The position numbers were made by a program, and so were the translations under genes. Positions 30,060 to 51,017 of a DNA stretch of 64,000 nucleotides are shown piece by piece (positions within the stretch are counted from its first letter, which is position 1; each line of letters begins with the position of its first letter). The notes beneath the pieces were generated by a model. That model saw only the letters and a list, made by a program, of their open reading frames with translations. It did no database searches and was not told where the DNA came from. Origin of the DNA: Haloarcula regularis (GTDB taxonomy: Archaea; Halobacteriota; Halobacteria; Halobacteriales; Haloarculaceae); the NCBI RefSeq assembly GCF_029338315.1, contig NZ_CP119794.1, positions 1,736,001 through 1,800,000 of the forward strand, written 5' to 3'.

Positions 30060-30608
30060 CTACGTGAGCAATACCGTGTTCCCCATTCCACGCCGCTTGC
30101 GCTCAACGAAGTCTTTGGCCTCCAGGCTGTCGAGCGTACGGCTGACGGTCGCTTTCGAAAGGTCCGTCCGGTCAACGATCTCACTCTGTGGCAGGACGCC
30201 GTCAGCGTCAAGGACTGTTTTGTACACCAGTTCCTCATTGCTCGCAAGCTGTTCTGAAATGGTCTCCCACTCCTGCCGACGGGCCTGCAGTAGCTCGTTG
30301 CTGGTTTGGGTGGACTGCTGCGTAGATGGGCCCGGGCGCTCGGTGTCTGCCGTGGTCGTCGACGTCGAATCAGTATTGTTGAAGAGCGCTGTCACGCTCG
30401 TTCCGGCGGCACACGCTGCAACAGCGATGACGATCACATTAGAGAGCCCGAACTGCCACCCGAGAGTCCCAGCTCGCATTCGCTCGTCTCCGACCACGAC
30501 AACGGGCGGTGTCGCGATCAGGAACTGTGCGACGAGAATCGCTGTGGATATGACGAGAACTCCCGTAGCCAGTAGCTCAGAGCGCGAGAGTGGGCGTATC
30601 TGTGTCAT
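30060..30608 (-). CDS. Membrane-anchored winged-helix transcription regulator
   Basis: The 182-aa protein starts MTQIRPLSRSELLATG. Two membrane helices (VLVISTAILVAQFLIATPPVV and LSNVIVIAVAACAAGTSVTAL) are followed by a Thr/Ser linker, a short coiled segment and a C-terminal MarR/TrmB-like winged helix (NEELVYKTVLDADG, LPQSEIVDRTDLSKATVSRTL, then the wing VERKRRGMGNTVLLT). The DNA-binding domain must face the cytoplasm, so this is a candidate membrane-linked sensor-regulator. It lies 136 nt downstream of an exported protein gene and is the best candidate to bind the operator at 31435-31470. Confidence 0.75.
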   Translation of the reverse strand: MTQIRPLSRSELLATGVLVISTAILVAQFLIATPPVVVVGDERMRAGTLGWQFGLSNVIVIAVAACAAGTSVTALFNNTDSTSTTTADTERPGPSTQQSTQTSNELLQARRQEWETISEQLASNEELVYKTVLDADGVLPQSEIVDRTDLSKATVSRTLDSLEAKDFVERKRRGMGNTVLLT

Positions 30609-30744: not shown

Positions 30745-31386
30745 TCATTGGCCACCCCAGTTGAGTCGAACGAGCGATTCAATGGTCTCAGTACGGAGAT
30801 CGACCACGGCACTGTACTGTGCTCCGGACTCGTTCGGTGTCACAACGACGAGTATGCGGTCATCGCTCCACTGCGATTCACGTCGCTCGAAGACGATGGA
30901 GTCATCATGTTGTTGGACAGTGAATGCGGATGCATTGGGGGCGATCTCAGTCCGCAACGATGCGTTCGGTGTGGCCCCGATGACTGCAGCACGGTCGCTT
31001 GAGAGCCGTGCCGGAATCCGACGAACAGTGTACACTGCGCTCTCGGGTGTTGGAATGTCGCCGTCGACGGTCTCAGCAGCCGTGATAACTTGCTGTACCT
31101 GCATACGTGTTCGTATATCCACTGCTGGCGGTTCACGACCGTTCGTTCGGACGACGTGATGACCGTCGACGTGGTTGATCTCGATTCGGGAGACCGTCCG
31201 AATGTCTTCGACCAGTACGTGCTGTTGCCCGCCGCCGGTCGTGGCGACGAGGGCACCGTCCTTAATGTTGAACTCGTGGGTTTCGTTAGGGACGATGCCA
31301 GTGACACTGCCAAAGACCGCGAGACTACTGCCCAGGACGATCAGCGAGAGGACCAGTGCCAGTCTGGAGGGGGGGACTGGGGACAT
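30745..31386 (-). CDS. Exported haloarchaeal protein, operator-flanking (minus side)
   Basis: The 213-aa protein starts MSPVPPSRLALVLSLIVLGS, a Sec-type signal or membrane anchor. The mature part is beta-rich with sequons (NET, NAS). Its C-terminal stretch DRILVVVTPNESGAQYSAVVDLRTETIESLVRL resembles a PepSY-like unit, in which a strand pair is followed by D-x-x-T-x-x-x-x. The protein diverges from the exported protein at 31656 across a nested palindrome and precedes the membrane-anchored regulator on the same strand. Function unknown. Confidence 0.65.
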   Translation of the reverse strand: MSPVPPSRLALVLSLIVLGSSLAVFGSVTGIVPNETHEFNIKDGALVATTGGGQQHVLVEDIRTVSRIEINHVDGHHVVRTNGREPPAVDIRTRMQVQQVITAAETVDGDIPTPESAVYTVRRIPARLSSDRAAVIGATPNASLRTEIAPNASAFTVQQHDDSIVFERRESQWSDDRILVVVTPNESGAQYSAVVDLRTETIESLVRLNWGGQ

Positions 31387-31434
31387 GGTTCCTTTTCGAA
31401 ACATCGGCAGTATGAATCTGATGGTTTCAGGGCG

Positions 31435-31470
31435 TGAAACACCTGTGAAACGCGTTTCAGTCGTGTTTCA
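31435..31470. promoter_or_regulatory. Nested palindromic operator between divergent exported-protein genes
   Basis: The outer arms TGAAACAC (31435-31442) and GTGTTTCA (31463-31470) are exact reverse complements. Between them, with 3-nt spacers on both sides, is a perfect 14-bp palindrome TGAAACGCGTTTCA (31446-31459). Further GAAAC/GTTTC half-sites lie at about 31398, 31423 and 31476. The symmetry suggests two stacked dimers of a winged-helix regulator. It lies upstream of both divergent genes. Confidence 0.75.
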
Positions 31471-31513
31471 TCGCCGTTTCCAATGGTGATTTACAAGGAC
31501 TTTCTTCCAAACT

Positions 31514-31666
31514 ATGAGCACAGCAGTCGGCGACGACAGACCGAATCGACTACGGGACCGGTTCCACGGTGTCCGTAGCCGCCCTGTCGGTCCCCGCCCG
31601 GCTGTTGTCAGAGTGCCAATGATACGACGTAATCGACGCGACTGGAGTGAGAGAAATGCAACGTGA
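31514..31666 (+). CDS. Possible small basic leader protein
   Basis: A 50-codon frame starts MSTAVGDDRPNRLRDRF and ends DWSERNAT, rich in Arg and Pro. ATTTACAAG about 25 nt upstream could serve as TATA box for a leaderless start. Its TGA lies 8 nt inside the next gene, so it may couple translation, or it may simply be leader sequence. No homology is recognised. Confidence 0.3.
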   Translation: MSTAVGDDRPNRLRDRFHGVRSRPVGPRPAVVRVPMIRRNRRDWSERNAT

Positions 31667-32627
31667 CTACAGACTCGCGATATACGCCCTCGGCATCTCG
31701 ACTGTATTGCTCGTCGCCAGTGGCGCCGCTGTTATCGCAGGGGCCAGTCTGTCTCCCGGACCGACAGACGACCCCGGCAACGAGACGAACGCCACCAAGC
31801 TGGACGCGGACCATCAGCAGCAATTCAACGAAACGCCGACGCAGACTGGCGACAGCAGATACACCTTACGGCCAGCCCAGCGCACGTGTAGTGGTGCCCT
31901 CCGCCTCAACAGTCCAGACCGCAACAGTACCAGCCACCAGGTCGGAGACGTGACCGTCACACTGGTCTCACACCATGATAGTGCGCCGATTGACGAGATC
32001 GGACGGCAGCGGTTAGCCGAACTCGTCGTCGAAGCAACGAGCAACCGTGCAGGTCTAAATGAGTACAGCCATCTCGAGGTACGGGTAAATCAGTACTACG
32101 AGTCCACGGCACGTGACGAACCGCTGGACATCGCTGGCATCCACGTTCGTCCCACTGACGATTGTCTTCCGTCGGTTCGAGGAACAGTCAACCTCACCAA
32201 CGAGACGGTTGATGTGCGGACTGTCCGTCCGGACATCGACGAGGTGAGTCTGAACTACACCGACAAGATTGGCGTACTGGATCAGGCCGATCGAGAACTG
32301 ATCGAGCGCCTCGTCGTGGCCGACAAACAGACGAGCTACAACGTTCGGGCACATTTGGATGCCACGGCGCTGGAGGCGACTGTCACGGAGGCAACCGCCG
32401 ATGGTCACGTCGATATCAAACTCCAGCGCTCCGACGGGAACGCGAGTTCGGTCATGCTGACTGTCGATCTCGACGCGGAGACTGTCGTCCACTCGTGGGT
32501 CAAGATACAGATTGATGAGTCGAACACTGAGATAGTCGAAGTCCAGAATACGTCCGAACAGGCTGAGAGCGTCAGTATCGGCCTCGACGGATCAAACGCC
32601 ACGGTGGTGAACGGCACAGGTGGGTGA
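31656..32627 (+). CDS. Exported haloarchaeal protein, operator-flanking (plus side)
   Basis: The 323-aa protein starts MQRDYRLAIYALGISTVLL with an N-terminal hydrophobic helix, then an Asn/Thr/Gln-rich stalk and an extracytoplasmic domain with several sequons (NRNST-type, NLTNET, NYT). The last part SSVMLTVDLDAETVVHSWVKI parallels the PepSY-like end of the divergent exported protein, so the two may be distant paralogs. GGAGTGAGAG sits just upstream of the ATG. Function unknown; probably co-regulated with its neighbour through the shared operator. Confidence 0.65.
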   Translation: MQRDYRLAIYALGISTVLLVASGAAVIAGASLSPGPTDDPGNETNATKLDADHQQQFNETPTQTGDSRYTLRPAQRTCSGALRLNSPDRNSTSHQVGDVTVTLVSHHDSAPIDEIGRQRLAELVVEATSNRAGLNEYSHLEVRVNQYYESTARDEPLDIAGIHVRPTDDCLPSVRGTVNLTNETVDVRTVRPDIDEVSLNYTDKIGVLDQADRELIERLVVADKQTSYNVRAHLDATALEATVTEATADGHVDIKLQRSDGNASSVMLTVDLDAETVVHSWVKIQIDESNTEIVEVQNTSEQAESVSIGLDGSNATVVNGTGG

Positions 32628-50507: not shown

Positions 50508-50738
50508 ACGGGGCTGCCACGGGACGGTATCCTGCCCCTCCGCTGACGTCCCCGCCGCGCGCGACGCGTCTGTCGGACCAGTTCTATCGGCGTCGACCAT
50601 CCAGCGGACGGGAGGCGAACAATCCGAGTCGGCCACGGGTAATCCGGCTTGCGTCGGGCTAAATCGGCTCGAAACCCGGCTGAAACCGGCTTCACTGTCA
50701 CCCCCTGTTTTTCCCTGTCTCGCCACGACCCGAGTGCA

Positions 50739-51017
50739 ATGTTGGAAGCAGACCTGCCTGCGATGGCACAGTTCGCACACGACACGGCCCGGCTGGCCAT
50801 GCAGGCCGGTCCGCCCGCCGACCTGCCCGCCCAGGTACCGGACTTCGTCGGGAACATCCTCGGCGAAATCGGCTCGTCCGCGGGCGAGGCGAAAGACGGA
50901 ATCGGTGAGGCCATCAGCGGCATGACGCCCGGCGGTGCGGAAGCGACGACCGGTGCCGAGACGGCGACCAACGAGACCGGTCACCCCGAGCACGCGGCGA
51001 ATGCGCCCGAGAAGTAA
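50739..51017 (+). CDS. Small haloarchaeal hypothetical protein
   Basis: The 92-aa acidic, Ala/Gly-rich protein (MLEADLPAMAQFAHDTARLA, DFVGNILGEIGSSAGEAK) has an amphipathic N-terminal helix, a low-complexity tail and no membrane helix. Codon use fits the chromosome. Function unknown. Confidence 0.6.
   Translation: MLEADLPAMAQFAHDTARLAMQAGPPADLPAQVPDFVGNILGEIGSSAGEAKDGIGEAISGMTPGGAEATTGAETATNETGHPEHAANAPEK

Follow-up and report, generated by a model that had tools for sequence, protein, structure and literature searches.

Results

The element between the divergent genes

The window, a 64,000-nucleotide stretch of the Haloarcula regularis genome, contains a palindromic element in the gap between two divergent genes, which raises the question of which protein reads the element and what it controls. 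The original prediction described a nested 8-3-14-3-8 palindrome, and this was found exactly as described at 31435-31470, where the sequence is TGAAACAC-CTG-TGAAACGCGTTTCA-GTC-GTGTTTCA with no mismatch. When up to three mismatches were allowed, the composite palindrome was the sole match in the window, where shuffled sequences gave an expectation of 0, and it occurred only once in the whole 3.6 Mb genome, again with 0 expected. The 14-mer TGAAACGCGTTTCA by itself is ordinary at the same tolerance (3 found vs. 2.2 expected), and the improbability resides in the composite and not in the 14-mer alone.

The core operator, kept in relatives, can be written TGAAAC-5-TGAAACGCGTTTCA-5-GTTTCA and is centred on 31452/31453. 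Its perfect 14-bp central palindrome at 31446-31459, a putative central dimer site, is the most conserved part of the logo. The half-site GAAAC at 31436-31440 on the forward strand (L2) lies 11 bp outside L1, and its reverse-strand counterpart R2 (GTTTC on the forward strand, 31465-31469) lies 11 bp outside R1. A further reverse-strand half-site, R3 (GTTTC at 31476-31480), is located another 11 bp outside R2, is conserved, falls outside the 8-3-14-3-8 pattern and abuts the promoter block of the rightward gene. The window array thus consists of five in-register half-sites beginning at 31436 (L2), 31447 (L1), 31454 (R1), 31465 (R2) and 31476 (R3). Extra half-sites had been claimed on both sides; R3 bears this out on the right, while on the left the GTTTC at 31424-31428 has the opposite orientation and does not keep the register, and the GAAAC at 31399-31403 is out of register and unconserved.

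The flanking genes are divergent, as originally described, and each product has one predicted N-terminal membrane or signal segment. Gene A (30745-31386, reverse strand) encodes a predicted single-pass exported protein of 213 residues, modelled as one transmembrane helix with an outer beta-rich part (pLDDT 78.5). Gene B (31656-32627, forward strand) encodes a predicted exported protein with an N-terminal transmembrane segment and helix-helix-beta repeats, of which the model is weak. Neither A nor B matched a Pfam family or, at E <= 0.001, a PDB fold. Weak look-alikes of B, RsiV and MucB, were set aside because the B model is poor. The B-like proteins of other genera (L054 6923-7441; L042 6740-7132) carry tandem LTADESF-type repeats, which suggests fast-evolving secreted or surface proteins.

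The candidate binder

The protein encoded at 30060-30608 on the reverse strand, wH, has two N-terminal transmembrane segments, a linker and a C-terminal winged helix of the DUF7343 / MarR-TrmB-like type. The two N-terminal hydrophobic regions are predicted in the window protein and in 19 of 19 homologues, and the linker is variable. The Pfam profile DUF7343 (PF24034) matched wH at 47.8 bits against a cut-off of 27.6, and it matched all 19 homologues at E <= 0.001. The protein also scored above the Pfam cut-offs of PF12802 and PF01047, which assigns it a MarR-type winged-helix domain, and above that of the TrmB profile. The recognition segment SKATVSR is invariant among the 19 homologues. The genome encodes other DUF7343-type proteins; their helices differ, and none lies near an array.

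Conservation of the array and linkage to wH

A motif-only scan for GAAAC-6-GAAAC-2-GTTTC-6-GTTTC, made with no reference to any gene across 293 genomes of the order, returned 18 sites in 17 genomes; the reversed pattern, used as a control on the same 293 genomes, returned 0 sites. A wH homologue (32-75% identity) adjoins 17 of the 17 sites other than that of the window, and this unbiased result upholds wH as the candidate binder. The wH gene is present in 65 of the 293 genomes, and the motif occurs in 17 of these 65 vs. 0 of the 228 without wH (p = 1.2e-12, an optimistic value because the genomes share ancestry, which also means that the counts are not independent events). Despite the common ancestry, wH identities extend down to 32% and the gene order is reshuffled.

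In the reverse test, the surroundings of 68 wH genes were searched for the sequence closest to the 20 fixed positions. The array was present at no more than 4 of 20 mismatches in 60 of the 68, with 0, 1, 2, 3 and 4 mismatches in 18, 18, 15, 6 and 3 loci, respectively, and 57 of these sites are upstream of wH. The best match in shuffled loci had 7 to 9 mismatches and never fewer than 7, and patterns of altered spacing mostly gave 5 to 8 mismatches, with few lower. The other 8 of the 68 loci are without a clear four-part array, and some of these have runs of GAAAC or GTTTC at 10-11 bp. Since the wH family was gathered by whole-protein similarity, the recognition helix is not an independently varied quantity in these comparisons. 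The array is found almost exclusively beside wH genes and is therefore very probably wH's own control switch.

A lack of conservation beside homologous genes had been set in advance as what would refute the proposal; the check was run and strongly favoured the proposal, as the element was found beside homologues in many genera. Orthologues of gene A occur in several Haloarcula genomes and in one other family. The orthologous intergenic regions within the genus keep the central TGAAACGCGTTTCA and nearly all flanking half-sites at identical spacing. Of the genes of the window that were checked, wH, A and B form a conserved group to which the PP2C, TPR and additional neighbours do not belong.

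The possibility of a global regulon was considered and rejected, as a relaxed search of the same genome gave only one other decent match, at 50671-50693 of the window. This sequence, GAAACCCGGCTGAAACCGGCTTC, has 1 mismatch to three half-sites and lies between genes, ahead of a small ORF at 50740. A viral origin was likewise rejected: the three near-identical IMG/VR contigs that match have 47% GC and no homologues of wH, A or B, and the match was judged to be chance.

A three-gene cassette

Among 43 complete named loci, 38 contain A, 37 contain B and 40 contain the site at no more than 4 mismatches; wH, A, B and the site occur together in 35 of the 43. Three of these loci are without A and B and likewise without a good site. 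The operator is thus part of a three-gene cassette composed of wH, exported protein A and exported protein B.

The gene order of the cassette varies: wH-A<op>B and A<op>wH-B were seen, and Halopiger has A<op>B, with wH further along. The distance from operator to wH is accordingly bimodal, 59-158 bp where wH is divergent from A and 715-981 bp where wH is behind A. Whatever the order, the operator sits between the predicted divergent promoters of the cassette, and this conserved placement despite reshuffling supports the proposal that both divergent genes are under shared control. A B gene that is separated from the main operator is often preceded by a shorter element of the form CGTTCCGAAACGCGTTTTCAACGG (no more than 3 mismatches in 23 of 39 cases vs. 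0 of 39 when shuffled; the test is circular for L053, L055 and L056, the loci that suggested the pattern). The CAACGG block of the short element also flanks B in loci of the window type. The varied gene orders and the short copy before a separated B indicate that the site follows the cassette promoters and not a fixed order.

Many cassettes are on megaplasmids and others are on chromosomes. Public annotations at the cassette read 'MarR family transcriptional regulator' and 'hypothetical protein'. Several individual loci deviate. One Haloarcula locus (L064, genome G019) matches wH in part, lacks A, B and the array, and is apparently a decayed cassette. Three Natrialba loci (L160, L162, L166) have wH homologues, A undetected, and poor sites or GTTTC runs at 11 bp; perhaps they are a diverged branch. 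A second cassette copy near a contig end (L024, genome G020) has a seemingly frame-broken A, represented by two tblastn pieces in different frames.

Geometry of the array

Half-sites of the same orientation at wH loci are separated by 11 bp (112 pairs) or 22 bp (43 pairs), and facing half-sites by 7, 18, 29, 40 and 51 bp, that is, by 7+11n. These peaks all but vanish in control DNA. The majority of arrays comprise 4 to 6 half-sites, and the alignment of relatives contains an 11-bp insertion in the array (L023, L052) and an 11-bp deletion (L151). Within the group arranged wH<site>A, the inner AA of the site adjoining the core never varies (36 of 36 sites), which is what a 3-bp overlap between complete 14-bp dimer sites would predict. 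The concentric symmetry had been taken to indicate two dimers; the geometry points instead to at least three overlapping dimer sites phased at 11 bp. The array is best taken as a series of overlapping 14-bp dimer sites on one helix face.

Promoters and translation starts

A TATA-like sequence, TTCATA, at 31411-31416 on the reverse strand was tentatively assigned to the A-wH operon; it lies about 39 bp from the operator centre and 27 bp before the ATG at 31386. The TATA-like TTTACAA at 31490-31496 on the forward strand, putatively that of gene B, belongs to the conserved block CCAACGG..TTTACAAGGnCTTTC and lies about 40 bp from the operator centre. Another TATA for B is possible within CTTTCTTCCAA, at about 31500-31510. 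Gene A probably starts at the ATG at 31386, because the ATG at 31404 is unconserved. Gene B starts at the ATG at 31656, behind the Shine-Dalgarno-like GGAGTGA at 31644-31650 (forward strand), which is conserved in the alignment of relatives; the ATG at 31514 is unconserved. The conserved GGAGTGA implies a leadered B transcript. The apparent leader of about 140 nt, at 31514-31655, is unusual since haloarchaeal genes are mostly leaderless. It contains a 50-codon ORF, the start of which is not conserved.

Discussion

The element is in all likelihood the operator of the adjacent membrane-anchored winged-helix protein, through which wH would autoregulate a local cassette with A and B. Each 14-bp TGAAACGCGTTTCA-type site would take one wH dimer. 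With sites every 11 bp and a 3-bp overlap, successive dimers would be placed side by side on one helix face and may bind cooperatively. The central site would be the strongest, and the outer sites would be held chiefly through their outer halves. Given its position between the two divergent promoters, with a few bases separating its last half-site from the B promoter block, the array would govern wH itself as well as its exported partners A and B. An envelope signal, perhaps sensed via A, via the short outer loop of wH or via both, may alter occupancy. As to the sign of the control, activation or dual autoregulation is slightly favoured by this analysis, since a position immediately upstream of BRE/TATA is also where known archaeal activators bind (PMC2995911).

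A bolder extension is that the membrane-tethered regulator polymerises along the one-turn-phased overlapping array, the length of which evolves by exact 11-bp units, and pulls the locus that encodes it to the membrane; the three genes would then make up an envelope-sensing cassette so far unrecognised, its response set by the length of the array. We regard this as tentative, something that could be so but probably is not.

The strongest competing explanation retains wH as the binder and differs from the preferred one in sign only. In this case the occupied array would simply repress, blocking the preinitiation complex at both promoters until an envelope signal relieves it. MarR-like regulators are frequently repressors, and the position of R3, directly against the B promoter block, fits such a role. 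The central site, however, lies about 39-40 bp from each putative TATA box, which is compatible with activation (PMC2995911), and we consider pure repression a serious contender that falls somewhat short of an even chance.

It is considerably less likely that the array is bound by another regulator, one not linked to it, such as a soluble Lrp- or TrmB-type protein, and that wH is merely a target. Haloarchaea do have many soluble winged-helix regulators, but other targets would be expected of such a protein, and the full-match motif was absent from all 228 wH-less genomes and was never away from wH in the 293. The repeats could also be conceived as replication-origin iterons or part of the end of a mobile element, as short GAAAC-containing repeats are known in haloarchaeal origins and many cassettes reside on megaplasmids; this is very improbable, for the arrays lie between cassette promoters, travel with wH on chromosomes too, and number one main array per cassette, and a replication gene was absent from the annotated cassette neighbourhoods examined. 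A function as RNA (hairpin, terminator or leader element) would suit a perfect inverted repeat and a long B leader, yet it is hardly credible, as the palindrome is upstream of both predicted promoters and an 11-bp register across up to six half-sites speaks for the DNA helix rather than an RNA stem.

The autoregulatory operator of wH, the preferred explanation, gives an uncharacterised haloarchaeal family, which has the DUF7343 domain and is labelled 'MarR family' in databases, a specific candidate site with strong support, and it defines a cassette in which both exported proteins are without a family assignment. The cassette is present in Haloarcula hispanica (HAH_RS19035 for wH, HAH_RS19040 for A and HAH_RS19045 for B) and in Haloferax mediterranei, both of them genetically tractable, so that DNA reading by a membrane-bound archaeal factor is directly testable. 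In the literature searched, which left most subscription papers outside its scope, no account was found of the motif or of any DUF7343 regulator's operator. CsmR, whose motif is TATCA-N4-TGATA, and the halolysin sptA elements were considered and judged to be different motifs.

Several known systems resemble parts of this one. The wH domain passes the Pfam cut-offs of the MarR family, and like MarR-family autoregulators it would act at an operator between divergent promoters including its own. It differs in its membrane anchor, in a multi-unit phased array and in a DNA-binding domain at the extreme C-terminus, whereas in soluble MarR proteins the winged helix is flanked by dimerisation helices at both termini. 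The archaeal Lrp-type regulators Ss-LrpB, Ptr2 and LysM share autoregulation and clusters of helix-phased, semi-palindromic dimer sites beside the BRE; for regulators of this type, cooperative binding of helix-phased dimers and activation via a site a few bases upstream of the BRE are documented (PMC2995911). They are soluble, their sites are two or three turns apart vs. one here, and they combine an HTH with a RAM effector domain, which was absent from the Pfam matches of wH.

ArnR and ArnR1 of Sulfolobus are, like wH, archaeal membrane-bound one-component HTH regulators with two transmembrane segments, and two inverted-repeat boxes are required together for ArnR binding (PMC6396743). Their domain order is the reverse of that of wH, with an N-terminal HTH, a C-terminal transmembrane pair and HAMP and sensor domains; their boxes, TCGAC-N5-GTCGA, are different, and their targets are surface-appendage promoters vs. 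a self-contained divergent cassette here (PMC6396743). With a predicted transmembrane region and a DNA-binding domain in one chain, wH has the predicted architecture of the transmembrane transcription regulators, a broad class; the main text of the survey of that class does not contain 'Halo', and an operator of the present type was not seen in the part of the survey consulted (PMC10269533). A membrane-tethered one-component regulator with an autoregulatory operator is therefore an already known kind, and what is new, as far as seen, is the one-turn-phased overlapping array together with the A/B cassette.
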